From Acetomicrobium hydrogeniformans (GTDB lineage Bacteria; Synergistota; Synergistia; Synergistales; JAFGMB01), in the NCBI GenBank assembly GCA_016841745.1, contig JAENYO010000009.1:1-64000 (forward strand): a stretch of 64,000 nt of DNA, read 5' to 3'. The notes below the pieces were generated by a model. That model was given only the letters and a program-made list of their open reading frames with translations. It did no database searches and was not told the origin of the DNA. The stretch's first letter is position 1; every line of letters begins with the position of its first letter. The position numbers and the translations under genes are program-made. Shown here one piece after another: positions 49,417-58,044 of this stretch.

Positions 49417-50889
49417 TTGTCAGACAGCCTTCAGAAGAAGATAAAAGAGTTTCCGTTAAAACCAGGTGTCTATATAATGCACGATGAAGAAGGAAAAGTA
49501 ATATATGTCGGGAAAGCCAAATTCCTGAAAAAAAGAGTTTCTTCATATTTTCGACACAAGTCTTTTGCTTCCCCAAGATTGCGGCACCTTGTCAATGCAA
49601 TAGAAGACATAACGTTTATTCGAACAGAAAGTGAGGCCGAGGCACTTATCGTTGAAGCCAAATTAATAAAAAGATACAAGCCTTTTTACAATATTGAACT
49701 TAAAATGGGTGATCGATATCCCTTTGTGAAAATAACAGATGAAAGATTCCCCAAAATGGTAATAACAAGACACAGAGAAAAAGATGGGGCCACTTACATT
49801 GGTCCATTTGTGTCTGCGGGGGAAATCAGAAACCTCCTGAGACTGGTACAGAGATATTTCCCACTCAGATCATGTCACAAGGACTTTGATCTTTCTGCCA
49901 ATTGCAGACCCTGTCTTAATTATGAAATAGGACGATGCCTTGGTCCCTGCTGCTCCAAATGCACATATTCAGAATATAGAGAACGAACGGATGATGTTAT
50001 TCTTCTTCTTAAGGGGCAATCGGCGGACCTTATCGAGCGATTGAGAAAACGTATGGAAAGCGCAGCAAGGGCAATGGCTTTCGAGGAAGCAGCACACCAT
50101 CGGGATAGCATAAGGGCTATCTGGAAGATGAACAGAAGAAAGGTTTCTGCAATAATGTCCGTGGATCTTGATATGGATACCTGGCAGATCCTTACTGATT
50201 TGCAGAAAATGCTCGCGCTAAAGACTATCCCATGGAGAATTGACGGTTTTGATATTTCCCACACATCAGGGAAGGAAACTTATGGAGTTGCAGTTGTATT
50301 TGAACAGGGTCTTCCGAACCCCTCCCTATATCGGAGATTCAAGATTCTTGAAACAGAGGGTGTTGATGATTTCAGATCCATACACGAGCTTGTTAAAAGG
50401 AGGTATAATCGTTGCCTGCAGGGAGATGAACCTTTTCCTCAGCTCGTTCTTATTGATGGAGGACCCATACAGTTAAGTTTTGCCCTTGAGGCTTTACATG
50501 AACTCTCAATCAACGATCTTGCTGTCATATCACTTGCAAAAAGAGAGGAAGAGATCTATCTTCCTGGCAAAAAGGATCCCTTGAAACTTCCTGATGACAG
50601 TGAAGTGCTCCGACTTCTCCAAAGAATTCGTAATGAGTCACACCGATTCGCCATCGATACCCATCGTTCCAAAAGGATCAGAAGATTGAGCCGAACGGTT
50701 CTCCTTGAAATACCGGGAGTGGGCAGACATCTCGCTGCATTGCTCCTGTCTGAATTTGGAAGTGTCCGCGATCTGATGACTCAATCGAAAGAAGAATTAA
50801 CCAGAATAAAGGGAATAGGTCCAATTCTCGCTGAAACTATATGGCGTTACCTGAAGGAAGGCGATGATCCGAAAGATGACAAGGAATGA
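49417..50889 (+). CDS. uvrC: Excinuclease ABC subunit C, compact form
   Basis: Dual-incision nuclease of nucleotide excision repair. The 490-residue protein keeps the GIY-YIG domain (about 12-95; KPGVYIM, VIYVGKA), the Cys cluster (about 150-185), the UVR motif (about 205-240), the RNase H-like nuclease with Asp in DGFDISH (279) and LIDGG (347) and His in ESHRFAI, and two C-terminal helix-hairpin-helix motifs. Usual UvrC is about 610 residues; the roughly 120 residues normally found between the UVR motif and FDISH are absent. The start is TTG 49417. It overlaps ribD. Confidence 0.93.
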   Translation: MSDSLQKKIKEFPLKPGVYIMHDEEGKVIYVGKAKFLKKRVSSYFRHKSFASPRLRHLVNAIEDITFIRTESEAEALIVEAKLIKRYKPFYNIELKMGDRYPFVKITDERFPKMVITRHREKDGATYIGPFVSAGEIRNLLRLVQRYFPLRSCHKDFDLSANCRPCLNYEIGRCLGPCCSKCTYSEYRERTDDVILLLKGQSADLIERLRKRMESAARAMAFEEAAHHRDSIRAIWKMNRRKVSAIMSVDLDMDTWQILTDLQKMLALKTIPWRIDGFDISHTSGKETYGVAVVFEQGLPNPSLYRRFKILETEGVDDFRSIHELVKRRYNRCLQGDEPFPQLVLIDGGPIQLSFALEALHELSINDLAVISLAKREEEIYLPGKKDPLKLPDDSEVLRLLQRIRNESHRFAIDTHRSKRIRRLSRTVLLEIPGVGRHLAALLLSEFGSVRDLMTQSKEELTRIKGIGPILAETIWRYLKEGDDPKDDKE

Positions 50890-51973
50890 TGAATATTATA
50901 TGCATCTTGCCATAAGCCTCGCTCTTCGTGGAAGTAAAGACACTTTATCGAATCCCATGGTCGGTTGTGTTCTTGTTAATAATGGATGCGTGGTCGGGAA
51001 AGGCTATCACCATGTTTTTGGTGAGGATCATGCAGAGATAGTAGCCTTGAAAGACGCTGGAACTGATGCAAGAGATTCTACGGCTTATGTGACACTTGAA
51101 CCCTGTTCTCACTATGGCAAGACTCCTCCATGTGCCCCAAGACTTATTGAAGCAGGTATAAATAGAGTAGTGATAGGAAGTCTTGATCCCAATCCTCTTG
51201 TTAATGGAAAGGGCGTTGATATTCTGAGAAAGGGGAAGGTTGAAGTAATTCATGGAATTCTCAAAGATGAATGTGACTGGTTAAACAGGGGTTTCTTCAG
51301 CAGGATAATAGAACATCGACCCTGGATTACATTAAAAGCAGCAACTGGTTTAGACGGTAAGATGTGTCTTTCGAACGGTGAAAGTAAATGGATAACCACT
51401 CCCTGGTCAAGGAGAGCCGCCCACTTGTTACGTTCTGAAAACGACGCAATCATGGTTGGAAAAAAAACGGTTTTGGCGGATGATCCCAGGTTGGATGTCA
51501 GATCAAGCTTTGGTAGATCCCCGCTGAAAGTTATCCTTGATCCCAGACTCGAGATATCTCCAACAGCGAAGGTATTTGAAAATGGTAAAACTCTTGTCTA
51601 TACATTATTGAGAGAGGATAAATTGAGCGGTTGCATGACTGAATATCCTGCAGGAACAGAACTTAGCAATGCAAGTAATGACGGCCAGGGCCTTAATCTG
51701 AAAGAGATTATATTTGATCTCTCAGCCAGGGGTATCAATTATCTACTGCTGGAGGGAGGCCCTACCCTTATTTCTTCATTCCTTAAAGATGGCCTGGTAG
51801 ATGAAATTGTTCTCTTTATCTCTCCCCGAATAATGGGTCAAGGTATAGCAATGGCAGATAAAATAATATTTCAGTGTATGGAAAGTACAATTCCTGTCAG
51901 AAATGTTAGAATAAGTCGAATAGGAAAAGACCTTATGTTGGAAGGAAGGGTCCCATGTTTACAGGACTGGTAG
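50864..51973 (+). CDS. ribD: Bifunctional riboflavin biosynthesis protein RibD
   Basis: Deaminase plus reductase for the second and third steps from GTP to riboflavin. The 369 residues have the N-terminal zinc deaminase with HAEIVALKDAG and PCSHYGKTPPCAPRLIEAG, then a reductase domain (about 150-365) with KAATGLDGKM and LLEGGPTL. ATG 50864 follows AAGGAAGG inside uvrC (26-base overlap); ATG 50876 is an alternative. Because the start lies inside uvrC there is no room for an FMN riboswitch in front of it. Confidence 0.94.
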   Translation: MIRKMTRNDEYYMHLAISLALRGSKDTLSNPMVGCVLVNNGCVVGKGYHHVFGEDHAEIVALKDAGTDARDSTAYVTLEPCSHYGKTPPCAPRLIEAGINRVVIGSLDPNPLVNGKGVDILRKGKVEVIHGILKDECDWLNRGFFSRIIEHRPWITLKAATGLDGKMCLSNGESKWITTPWSRRAAHLLRSENDAIMVGKKTVLADDPRLDVRSSFGRSPLKVILDPRLEISPTAKVFENGKTLVYTLLREDKLSGCMTEYPAGTELSNASNDGQGLNLKEIIFDLSARGINYLLLEGGPTLISSFLKDGLVDEIVLFISPRIMGQGIAMADKIIFQCMESTIPVRNVRISRIGKDLMLEGRVPCLQDW

Positions 51974-52620
51974 AAACTACTGGCAGTGTCATTTCCCTGA
52001 AAAAAAGTCAGGATATTGTTCAAATAAAGATAATGGCTCCGGAGATCTTGAAGGAGCTTTACTATGGACAGTCTATATCAGTTTCAGGAGCCTGTCTGAC
52101 TATAACTGCTCTTGATCATCGGTCTTTTATCGTTGAGATGATACCTGAAACAACTGGTAAAACAACGCTAGGAAGACTTTCCGCCGGAAGTAGGGTTAAC
52201 ATTGAGAGGGCTCTCCAGACTGGATCCAGACTGGATGGCCATCTCGTAACTGGTCATGTTGACGGGATAGGAATAATCCAAAACTTTCAACCCAGAGGGC
52301 GATCTACCGAGATAACTATTTCAGCCGATCCTGCGATCCTTGCACAAATGGTTTCCAAGGGGTCAGTTACCGTGGACGGAATAAGTCTAACCATTATTGA
52401 TGTAAGCGAAACTTTTTTTTCCGTTGGCATTATCCCTGCAACCCTGAAGAATACTACCCTTGGATTTGCTACAATGGGCGATGCGGTTAACATTGAAAGT
52501 GATATACTCGGTAAATATGTCCAGAAGTTTCTTTTTTTAAGGGGAAATGACAATCGCGTTAAAAAGACGGAAGGTCTTACCTGGGATACACTTGCCGGAT
52601 CAGGTTGGACTTCCAGTTAA
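51955..52620 (+). CDS. ribE: Riboflavin synthase, alpha chain
   Basis: Trimeric enzyme that dismutates two 6,7-dimethyl-8-ribityllumazine molecules. The 221-residue protein has two repeated lumazine-binding barrels, each opening [12 protein letters not shown] or its counterpart [13 protein letters not shown], and [10 protein letters not shown]. It overlaps ribD by 19 bases. The last 20 or so residues run beyond the usual end of the domain and look unstructured. Confidence 0.93.
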
Positions 52621-52642
52621 ATATTCGGAGGCGAAAACAAAA

Positions 52643-53887
52643 ATGACATGCGATCATTATGATGAACATCTGAATACGATCGATGAGGCTATAGAAGACA
52701 TTAAAGTTGGGAAAATGGTCATTGTGGTAGATGACCGATGTCGTGAAAACGAGGGTGACCTTGTTATGGCTGCCCAAATGACTACCAGAGAAGATATTAA
52801 TTTCATGACCAAGTATGCGAGAGGTCTTATATGTGTTCCCCTTTCGGAAGAGAGAGCAAAACAGATAGACCTGGAATTAATGGTACTTAACAATACAGAG
52901 AAACTCTGTACAGCTTTTACTGTATCTGTAGATGCCAAAGAGGGAACAACTACTGGAATATCTGCCGAAGAAAGAAGCATTACTGCCAGACTTCTTGCTG
53001 ACCCGGGAGCTGCACCTGAAGATTTTGTTAGACCTGGGCATATGTTTCCTCTTAAGGCAAGGAATGGAGGAGTTCTCAAGAGGGCTGGTCATACGGAAGC
53101 GGCTACGGATCTAATGAAACTTGCTGGCCTTCAGCCTGCTGCAGTTATCTGCGAAATCATGAACGATGATGGATCCATGGCCAGACTGCCGGACCTGATG
53201 GGATTCGCCAGATTTCATGACCTGAAAATAGTAACGATAGAAGATCTGATAGCTTTTCGTTCCTGTCAGGACAAACTTGTAATCAAAGAGGCAACTGTAA
53301 ACCTTCCTACCAATTGTGGTATTTTTATAGCCCATGCTTATAGGGCTATTCTTGAAGATGTTCAGGACAGATTGCATATTGCTCTAGTCAAAGGAGATGT
53401 GCGTGACAAGGATGAAGTCCTTGTCAGGGTACATTCAGAATGCCTTACCGGAGATGTTTTCGGCTCTTTGAGATGTGACTGTGGTCCCCAGCTTCACAAG
53501 GCCATGCAAATGATCGAGAACGAGGGGGAGGGTGTACTGCTTTACATGAGACAGGAAGGCAGGGGTATCGGGCTGCTTGAAAAACTCAAGGCCTACAAAC
53601 TACAGGAAGAGGGCCTTGATACTGTCGAAGCAAATGTAGCTTTGGGACATGAAGATGACCTTCGTGATTACGGTATAGGTGCCCAGATACTTTCCGATCT
53701 GGGAATTAAAACCCTAAAACTGATCACGAACAATCCAAGAAAAATAGTGGGACTACAGGGGTATGGCCTGGAAATAACTGAACGTATTCCTATTGAGATT
53801 GATCCCAATGAATATAATGCCTTTTATCTGCAATCAAAAAAGGAAAAGATGGGGCATTTTTTACATTTGAAAGATATTCTGCACTAA
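52643..53887 (+). CDS. ribBA: Bifunctional DHBP synthase / GTP cyclohydrolase II
   Basis: Fusion of RibB (about 1-205), which makes 3,4-dihydroxy-2-butanone 4-phosphate from ribulose-5-phosphate, and RibA (about 210-405), which opens GTP. RibB marks are [15 protein letters not shown] and RPGHMFPL; RibA has the zinc cysteines in [18 protein letters not shown] and the Arg of RQEGRGIGL. The start is ATG 52643 (MTCDHYDEH), behind CGGAGGCG; earlier in-frame starts lie inside ribE. 414 residues, normal for the fusion. Confidence 0.95.
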
Positions 53888-53915
53888 AATATTCAAATCG
53901 GAAGGAGAATCTGTT

Positions 53916-54392
53916 ATGAAGATCATCCAGGGAAAACTTATAGGGACAGGTTTGAGATTCTGCCTTATCTCTTCTCGTTTTAATGAATTAATCTCATCCC
54001 GGCTTCTTGATGGTGCCAAAGATGCACTTTTCAGACACGGTGTAAGCCCCCAGAATGTCGATTTAGTCTGGGTACCGGGTGCATGGGAAATACCTCTCCT
54101 TGCAAAGGAAATTGCTCTAAAGGGGACTTATGACGGTATCATAGCTGTTGGAGCGGTTATCAGAGGAGATACACCCCATTTTGAATATGTTTCCGCTGAA
54201 ATGTCAAAGGGTATTTCCCAGGTCAGTCTCCAACATAGGGTTCCCATAGGATTTGGAGTCCTTACCTGTGATAATCTTGAGCAGGCTCTCCTCAGAGCTG
54301 GGAGTAAAAGTGGTAACAAAGGTGCTGAAACCGCTGTTGCCGTCCTGGAAATGGCCAATGTCCTGAAAGAGATCCGCACAGAGGAGGCTTGA
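53916..54392 (+). CDS. ribH: 6,7-dimethyl-8-ribityllumazine synthase
   Basis: Condenses the products of RibD and RibB to lumazine. The 158-residue protein shows RFNELISSRLLDGA, VPGAWEIPLLAKEIA, GAVIRGDTPHFEYVS (with the catalytic His region) and FGVLTCDNLEQALLRAG. It follows ribBA after 28 bases, with GGAAGGAG upstream, and precedes serS by three bases. Confidence 0.95.
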   Translation: MKIIQGKLIGTGLRFCLISSRFNELISSRLLDGAKDALFRHGVSPQNVDLVWVPGAWEIPLLAKEIALKGTYDGIIAVGAVIRGDTPHFEYVSAEMSKGISQVSLQHRVPIGFGVLTCDNLEQALLRAGSKSGNKGAETAVAVLEMANVLKEIRTEEA

Positions 54393-55679
<1,287 letters not shown>

Positions 55680-55691
55680 CAATAAGTGTTT

Positions 55692-55740
55692 GTAGATTTT
55701 CCATTTACCTCCTTAAATATCAGGTAAATGGAAAATCTAC
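55692..55740. repeat. Perfect 19-base inverted repeat after serS
   Basis: The arms at 55692-55710 and 55722-55740 are exact complements around an 11-base loop. TTTAATCTT follows, so it can act as a modest terminator for serS. The sequence ACCTCCTT spans the loop boundary (55707-55714) and equals the anti-Shine-Dalgarno sequence of 16S rRNA. It could pair with AAGGAGG at 55819-55825, the ribosome site of the next gene. Confidence 0.8.
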
Positions 55741-55761
55741 TTTAATCTTGGTAGAATAGCG

Positions 55762-55789
55762 TTGTAGATAACATTATGATCCATATAAT
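55762..55789 (+). promoter_or_regulatory. Probable promoter of the glycosyltransferase/V-ATPase operon
   Basis: TTGTAG (55762-55767) and a perfect TATAAT (55784-55789) are 16 bases apart. A start near 55796 gives a leader of about 40 bases. Confidence 0.5.
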
Positions 55790-55834
55790 ATTTATTCGTA
55801 TTCGTAAGAAAGCTTTGAAAGGAGGACCCCTTGC

Positions 55835-57574
55835 GTGCCCTCTCTGAGTATAAATATACACACATTTATCATGGCCCTATGTTCAGGAGTAATATTTTGT
55901 TTTTTTACTCAGCGTTTCTGTAAGAAGATTCTTAATAAAGTTCAATATGATTATTTCCGGGATCTCCTACTTGTTGGTAGTTGGTTCATTCTGGTTTCTT
56001 CTTTCGGAACCAGTGTGCTTCGTATTATTGTAGGCTGTTCTGTGATTTCTCTTGCCCTGGGGATGATCCAGCACATAAATCCGGATCGCAACCTTAGGTG
56101 GATGTACATTTCAGTGGGCTTGCTTTTCTCTCTCCTTGGCCCCCGTATTTCTTTTATAGGACTTCCTGGTGGGGAATATCTATTTCTTTCCCCTCTGTTC
56201 TCTATAATTGTAACTGCACTGTGGATAACAATGTTCCCTTTACTGCTTCAGGAGTTGGACAACGTTCCTGGAATGGTCGGCCATCTTCTGGCTATCACTT
56301 TTCTTCTGGTACTCATAGTAACCCTCGTTTCTGGCCAGGACCTTGGTAATGCATTCATGATGTCCTTTTCTGGTCTGGCTCTGCTTGCACTTTTCTGGAG
56401 CCGACATGGGCATCTTTACAGACAACTTGGAAAACCCCTTTCGTCATTCTGGGGTGTTATTGTTGCGGGCACATCCGTTTTGGGGGTCAGCAAGGGTATA
56501 ACCCTGAGTACTCTGATTGTAATTCCCATCGGGCTTTTTGCCATACCTATTATGGAAACTTCGCTACACTTTGCCAGCCTTGCCCTTTCAGAAAAACCAA
56601 AAGGAGCAATGCTTCTCTATCGAGAGCTTGTAAAAAGAGGTCTTGATCATCCTACTGCCGTACATCTGATAACCCTTATCTGTGCCACTATTGGCTCAAT
56701 TGTCACGGTCTTTCAACTTACAAGTCCGGGAAACGCCATATTATTTTCATTTATAGTTTTTACTTTTTCTTTTGTTTTCTCTCTTCCTGTTCTCAATGCC
56801 ATGTTAGCGAAGGAACATACCTGCAGAAAACCATATTTATGGGGTATCCCTGTAGATAACGTATCCATGAATTATGCAGTATCCAGATTTATTACCAGTG
56901 CGAGGAATGGAACCAGACCTTTCATTGTCGTAACTGTTAATGCATTATCTGCATTTCTTGGAAGGACTCATGAAAAATATCGCGCAATTACAAATCAGGC
57001 TGATCTCTCTTTACCAGATGGGGCAGGTATTCTCTGGGCTATGAAATGTCTTGGAACTCCAGTCCAGGAAAGAGTCACTGGAATAGACTTTCTAGAACAG
57101 GTCTGCAGATCTGCCGCTTCTGAAGACTTTTCAGTTTTCCTTTTGGGCAGCACCGATTCTATCGTAGCGGAAGCAGCCCGATCACTTCAGGCAAAATATC
57201 CCGGACTGACCATATCGGGCTACAGAAACGGATATTTCACAGAAAAGGATACTCCATCTGTAATTGAATCCATTAGGGCATCCGGAGCCAGGATCCTCTT
57301 TGCTGGAATGGGAGTGCCTCTACAGGAAGAATGGATCGCTGAAAATATTTTTAAGATCGGTAATGTTTGTGCTGTCGGGGTTGGGGGAGCTTTTGATGTG
57401 ATTTCCGGTAATATCCGTCGAGCACCTGAGATTTATCAGAAACTCAATCTTGAATGGCTTTACCGACTTCTCCAGGAACCATGGAGACTCAGGAGAGATT
57501 TGAACCTTTTCTTTTTTCTGCTTCAAGTTATCTTCACCAAAATTAATCTATTATTTCAAAAGAAGGTTCGATAA
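55835..57574 (+). CDS. Membrane protein with degenerate MraY/WecA-like domain fused to TagA/CpsF glycosyltransferase
   Basis: A 579-residue two-part protein. Residues 1-330 form about ten membrane helices in the layout of polyprenyl-phosphate sugar-1-phosphate transferases, but the DDxxD, NxxDGxDG and HLHHRL catalytic motifs are not found at the matching places (QHINPD, LDNVPGM and LLYREL stand there). Residues 335-570 are a GT26 (WecG/TagA/CpsF) domain with the residues expected for activity: Thr367, Asp395 in PDGAGILWA and Gln497 in GVPLQEEW, then GGAFDVISGNIRRAP. It probably adds a sugar to a lipid-linked intermediate. GTG 55835 follows AAAGGAGGA. Confidence 0.75.
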   Translation: MPSLSINIHTFIMALCSGVIFCFFTQRFCKKILNKVQYDYFRDLLLVGSWFILVSSFGTSVLRIIVGCSVISLALGMIQHINPDRNLRWMYISVGLLFSLLGPRISFIGLPGGEYLFLSPLFSIIVTALWITMFPLLLQELDNVPGMVGHLLAITFLLVLIVTLVSGQDLGNAFMMSFSGLALLALFWSRHGHLYRQLGKPLSSFWGVIVAGTSVLGVSKGITLSTLIVIPIGLFAIPIMETSLHFASLALSEKPKGAMLLYRELVKRGLDHPTAVHLITLICATIGSIVTVFQLTSPGNAILFSFIVFTFSFVFSLPVLNAMLAKEHTCRKPYLWGIPVDNVSMNYAVSRFITSARNGTRPFIVVTVNALSAFLGRTHEKYRAITNQADLSLPDGAGILWAMKCLGTPVQERVTGIDFLEQVCRSAASEDFSVFLLGSTDSIVAEAARSLQAKYPGLTISGYRNGYFTEKDTPSVIESIRASGARILFAGMGVPLQEEWIAENIFKIGNVCAVGVGGAFDVISGNIRRAPEIYQKLNLEWLYRLLQEPWRLRRDLNLFFFLLQVIFTKINLLFQKKVR

Positions 57575-57576
57575 AA

Positions 57577-58044
57577 GTGAATACGAAGGCGCAAACTCTT
57601 ATGCAGCGAGATCTGACCGCAGTCATGGAGGACGATCTGATCCATGACGCAGTACACATTCTTTACAGTCACAATCTATCTGGAATCCCTGTTATTCGCG
57701 AAGACTGGGTCTTGAAGGGATACCTTTCTGAATCTGATGTTCTTAAGGCAGCCCTTCCAACTTACCTTGAAATTATTGCTCAGAGCTCCTTTCTGAACGA
57801 TGAGGAATACAGCCTGTTGAATCGGTTCAAAACACTGGGAAATGCACGAGTGACCGAGTTTATGAATACGAAACCCATTTATGTTGAACCAGCAACCAGC
57901 CTGATGATAGTAGCAGACCTCATGTTACGCAAAAAGGTCAAGAGACTTCCTGTTGTAGAGAATGGGAAACTTGTAGGCATAATTGACAGGGGTGCTTTCT
58001 GTGAATTCCTGATGGAGGCAGATACCCTGAATGAAAAAGAATGA
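57577..58044 (+). CDS. CBS-domain pair protein
   Basis: A 155-residue protein made almost wholly of two CBS motifs (about 5-60 and 85-150): MQRDLTAVMEDDLIHDAVHIL and LVGIIDRG mark the repeats. Such Bateman modules bind adenine nucleotides and act as energy sensors. The gene starts at GTG 57577 two bases after the glycosyltransferase stop and overlaps the next gene by 14 bases, so it belongs to the V/A-ATPase transcript. A role in sensing ATP for that operon is inferred from position. Confidence 0.8.
   Translation: MNTKAQTLMQRDLTAVMEDDLIHDAVHILYSHNLSGIPVIREDWVLKGYLSESDVLKAALPTYLEIIAQSSFLNDEEYSLLNRFKTLGNARVTEFMNTKPIYVEPATSLMIVADLMLRKKVKRLPVVENGKLVGIIDRGAFCEFLMEADTLNEKE

Follow-up and report, generated by a model that had tools for sequence, protein, structure and literature searches.

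One gene of Acetomicrobium hydrogeniformans fuses what is best read as a PNPT-fold pseudoenzyme domain to a GT26 transferase, and its product is, on balance, probably an integral-membrane TagA whose membrane half derives from WecA. In the window, meaning the whole 64,000-nt stretch of DNA that was analysed, the open reading frame covers exactly positions 55,835-57,574 on the plus strand, as do all features of the gene given below, starts with GTG and encodes 579 aa. The fusion is real, conserved across the phylum Synergistota and apparently undescribed, since a search of open-licence literature returned no earlier description of GT26 joined to a degenerate PNPT. Domain identity, motif loss, the kept TagA residues, phylum-wide conservation and the co-occurrence of pathway genes were computed. 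If read correctly, this is an unusual case of a conserved PNPT-fold pseudoenzyme.

The C-terminal half (residues 335-570; 56,837-57,544) is a GT26 domain of the TagA/WecG type, delimited by PF03808, alignment with 7mpk and fold search. PF03808 matches residues 389-554 with an E of 2.9e-62 (209.8 bits, cut-off 27.4), and the closest solved relatives are the T. italicus TagA/TarA structures 7mpk and 5wb4, which share the domain and its C-terminal appendage at 36-37% identity. Alignment places T367 (56,933-56,935) at TagA Thr37, D395 (57,017-57,019) at the catalytic base Asp65, and, in the appendage that targets TagA to the membrane, R544 and R551 (57,464-57,487) at Arg214 and Arg221 (residues from PMC6493773); all four are invariant across 40 sequences. 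The sequence-only reading had described this half as active-looking, and the invariant Thr, Asp and Arg equivalents together with the PF03808 match agree. The top NCBIfam match was NF041710, a TarA equivalog of ManNAc specificity, at 175.5 bits, below its cut-off of 350. Unlike the fusion, with its attached polytopic membrane domain, T. italicus TagA is soluble, associates peripherally with the membrane and undergoes a dimer-to-monomer switch (PMC6493773).

The N-terminal half (residues 1-333; 55,835-56,833) has the MraY/WecA fold and WecA ancestry. Pfam and NCBIfam matched no family when searched with this half alone (residues 1-338), so the case is built on profiles, structure and divergent orthologues. 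A model made from its own alignment (pLDDT 89.9, pTM 0.88) retrieved MraY or DPAGT1 at ranks 1-29 of a PDB fold search, all at probability 1.00 and TM of 0.49-0.68, and the next family appeared at a probability of only 0.15. The full-length model, from a 40-sequence alignment (pLDDT 88.8, pTM 0.64, with the arrangement of GT26 over the old groove not fixed), matched TagA, MraY and DPAGT1, in that order. A polytopic MraY-like fold is thus present in the models. MraY itself (5ckr, 4j72, 8tlu) resembles the fusion in fold, with TM-scores of 0.58-0.69, but shares only 12-14% identity, and its HHH motif is missing from the fusion.

Profile comparison places the N-terminal half nearer to WecA than to MraY (hhalign scores 46 and 27). 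Against 18 Synergistales WecA sequences the match was colinear (P 1.3e-5), with 100 block-shuffled WecA profiles averaging 24 and reaching at most 33.7 and reversed profiles scoring 15-19; against the MraY profile it was not significant (reversed control 23). The fusion keeps residues at WecA positions (G76, D142, G146, W188, G199, G207, P238), and differs from WecA in lost motifs, a shorter loop I, the GT26 domain and an extra last membrane helix ahead of it (residues 298-326; 56,726-56,812), placed by secondary structure and hydropathy with a predicted topology. The glycosyltransferase 4 family (PF00953), proposed as a check by the sequence-only reading, gave no match in the window protein and weak matches in 2/40 orthologues; among five divergent orthologues from two other Synergistota families (f11 and f12), all translated from DNA, four exceeded the cut-off (34-37 bits vs 27) and the fifth reached 23 bits. 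The MraY/WecA-like helix layout that had been proposed is therefore upheld by fold search, hhalign and the orthologues alike, and the predicted structure resembles MraY/DPAGT1 alone among confident PDB matches.

Motif loss was scored on a joint alignment of 40 order-level fusion sequences with WecA. The Mg-binding DD pair of loop II, at Q79-H80 in the window protein (56,069-56,074), is replaced by Q/E/R and then R/H/K; a single sequence has Asp at the first position and another one has it at the second, so that none has both, and the second position is R, H or K in 30/40. In loop IV (R190-K200; 56,402-56,434), where R190 is invariant and R196 nearly so, the GD whose Asp is equivalent to MraY Asp265 is mostly GE, GR or GK, with Asp in 2/40 and K200 in the window protein. 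Glu stands at two of the lost Asp positions in 9/40 and 17/40 sequences. The HxHH motif (L260-R263; 56,612-56,623) has become xxYR, its middle His being Tyr (Y262) in 40/40 sequences and in all four f11 fusions, and a shortened loop I lacks the DxPxxRKxH stretch. Loop III, by contrast with these, keeps its Asp: D142 (56,258-56,260), at the position of E. coli Asp156, is present in 40/40 sequences within the order and 5/5 orthologues outside. In E. coli WecA, mutation of Asp90/91, Asp156/159 or His279 leaves little or no function (reviewed in PMC5222938); MraY binds Mg close to Asp265 and uses Asp117 to act on the phosphate of the lipid (PMC5039524). The earlier claim that the catalytic Asp and His motifs are gone consequently stands for DD, the loop IV Asp and HxHH and fails for D142, and the loss is common to homologues, within the order and in the divergent ones beyond it. 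Exchange of acidic for basic residues at the old metal site does not serve as a main argument: loop II fits such a swap in fusions inside and outside the order, but basic residues mark loop IV only within it.

The degenerate half is kept rather than decaying, as judged from its identity level and invariant columns. Over 78 genome pairs, the N-terminal half averaged 35% pairwise identity, below intact WecA (42%) and the GT26 half (47%). Ten N-terminal columns are invariant, nine of which (Y40, D43, D142, G146, R190, W206, Y262, G269, H272) lie in or beside loops predicted to be cytoplasmic on a topology borrowed from MraY. A conserved pseudoenzyme is the best reading of this pattern, although D142 and a few acidic residues (Glu/Asp) where the metal once bound may still allow some remaining or modified chemistry.

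The fusion gene was found in 143 of 151 order-level relatives and in 101 of the 102 good genomes, in one copy save where it is split across contigs. The nearest named relative, a Synergistaceae MAG, is 51% identical across residues 19-569, and in a single scan of a genome collection the N-terminal half was matched in a Synergistaceae MAG only. This relative and the spread of the gene point to a host within Synergistales. The divergent fusions of f11 and f12 came from a phylum-wide search. Viewed from the other domain, GT26 is present in 59/61 genomes, single copy in 58 of these 59 and fused in all of the 58 save two where the contig ends. A second GT26 in genome G039 was rejected as a second fusion, being a stand-alone domain at another sugar-gene locus. 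Two genomes (G024 and G031, 81-82% completeness) have neither the fusion nor any PF00953 protein, MraY included; these absences are probably assembly gaps, given that CsaB-family and SLH genes are present there. Gene order at window positions 49,417-58,044 is uvrC-ribD-ribE-ribBA-ribH-serS, the fusion, a CBS-pair protein and a V-ATPase I-subunit-like gene; outside the order, at locus L122, serS again adjoins the fusion, which is followed there by genes for an S41/PDZ peptidase and a polysaccharide deacetylase.

A separate, active-looking WecA, the existence of which the sequence-only reading had left to be checked, is encoded in the same genome beside WecB with its motifs intact. It is one of three further PF00953 genes, the others being MraY and a third member in a sugar-nucleotide locus. 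Almost all relatives have exactly two other PF00953 proteins, MraY and WecA, and three of five genomes outside the order have all three, degenerate one included. The intact WecA (DD, GD and HxHH kept) adjoins an RpiB-UPRTase ORF in 20/20 loci and WecB in 15. That neighbour is itself a fusion, an RpiB-type sugar isomerase and a uracil phosphoribosyltransferase in one ORF (PF02502 and PF14681; L110:163-1284).

The mechanism below is inferred as regards catalysis, sugar specificity, binding of lipid by the pseudoenzyme half and the identity of the polymer. The residues of the metal and donor sites would have disappeared from a WecA-type PNPT ancestor ahead of the divergence of the Synergistota families, and the domain would have been kept as a pseudoenzyme since. 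The separate intact WecA would make undecaprenyl-diphosphate-GlcNAc, to which the C-terminal GT26 half would add ManNAc, and the resulting GlcNAc-ManNAc lipid would serve a pyruvylated wall polymer. A C-terminal helix holds TagA and WecG, both peripheral proteins, at the membrane (PMC6493773, PMC12212991); in the fusion, the N-terminal half would fix the transferase permanently at the membrane. In MraY, both ends of the chain are periplasmic (PMC5039524); one helix more than its ten would therefore put GT26 in the cytoplasm, as the substrate demands.

The groove of PNPT enzymes binds polyprenyl phosphate, which makes the old groove a natural candidate for the acceptor lipid, and it most likely would receive the lipid-linked GlcNAc. 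The suggestion of the sequence-only reading that the membrane half serves as a lipid-substrate platform is accordingly a good hypothesis; conservation at the cytoplasmic face fits it, as do anchoring and pairing with WecA. In its fullest form, which we offer tentatively, a single early event in Synergistota converted the PNPT fold into a non-catalytic domain that receives the lipid-linked product of its intact paralogue, and a peripheral transferase thereby became an integral one with a built-in acceptor site.

Part of this evidence could be accommodated by an N-terminal half that is an anchor and binds no lipid substrate, replacing the switch of TagA between soluble dimer and membrane monomer. 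The known GT26 enzymes TagA and WecG act peripherally and depend on contact with the membrane (PMC6493773, PMC12212991), and fusion to a membrane domain would indeed fix the location; a single helix would do for that, however, and here a ten-helix fold carries polar residues invariant in 40/40 sequences at predicted cytoplasmic loops, while the membrane-facing arginines of the GT26 appendage are kept as well. We consider such a bare anchor unlikely. Similarly doubtful, to about the same degree, is that the pseudo-PNPT half heterodimerises with intact WecA and passes what WecA makes straight on to the fused GT26 domain. Nearly all genomes tested encode both proteins, and PNPT enzymes such as MraY homodimerise, MraY having been crystallised and crosslinked as a dimer (PMC5039524), yet the WecA and fusion genes lie on different contigs of their own genome.

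Far less probable than either is that the N-terminal half is still an active phosphotransferase, or a related lipid-phosphate enzyme with altered residues, in a bifunctional protein. The invariant D142 and the frequent Glu at two lost Asp positions are what such an enzyme might keep, but the complete loop II pair occurs in none of the 40 sequences, its second position is mostly basic, the His is always Tyr, loop I is short and without DxPxxRKxH, and an intact WecA is at hand. An integral-membrane TagA with a WecA-derived pseudoenzyme half is the explanation that we retain. Its value would be practical too: how GT26 enzymes find and hold their lipid substrate has been modelled, not resolved, for TagA, and a naturally occurring protein that joins GT26 to a lipid-phosphate-binding fold would provide structural studies with a stable, membrane-bound form.

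The fusion likely begins a pyruvylated polymer, a reading drawn from the co-occurrence of CsaB, SLH and LCP genes, a TRYE motif, the P. alvei pathway and the OmpM/SlpA-like tethers reported in Synergistetes (PMC9388160). One genome holds WecA, WecB, TagA, CsaB, LCP and SLH genes. Its CsaB pyruvyltransferase scores 249 bits against a TIGR03609 cut-off of 213, and among relatives the CsaB Pfam family PF04230 is found in 40/41, SLH in 35/41 (undetected in 5 of 33 good genomes) and an LCP ligase in 19/21. An SLH protein of the window genome (L119:9240-10679; Pfam SLH with a partial porin-family match) carries TRYE, the motif that touches pyruvate in SLH-polymer complexes (PMC10628300). In P. alvei, MnaA, TagA and CsaB jointly make a pyruvylated lipid-linked repeat, CsaB using the lipid-linked product of TagA (PMC6030368). 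The counterparts of its TagO-MnaA-TagA-CsaB system (WecA/TagO, WecB/MnaA, TagA, CsaB) and SLH proteins are all in the genome studied here, with differences in arrangement: recombinant P. alvei TagA works on its own, and one locus there contains tagA, csaB and tagO (PMC6030368), whereas in the window genome TagA is fused and the genes are dispersed, so that the tie to CsaB and SLH is one of co-occurrence. The fusion would in this way point to the first steps in making a wall polymer to which the outer membrane of Synergistota may be tethered.

Other domain combinations were seen around these pathways. One chain of the same genome combines SLH, SPOR and phosphodiester glycosidase (NAGPA) domains (L120:3711-5492). 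In a Clostridia MAG, a WecA with intact motifs and a WecB-like epimerase form a single 750-aa ORF (L005:7912-10161), near which lies a stand-alone TagA gene.
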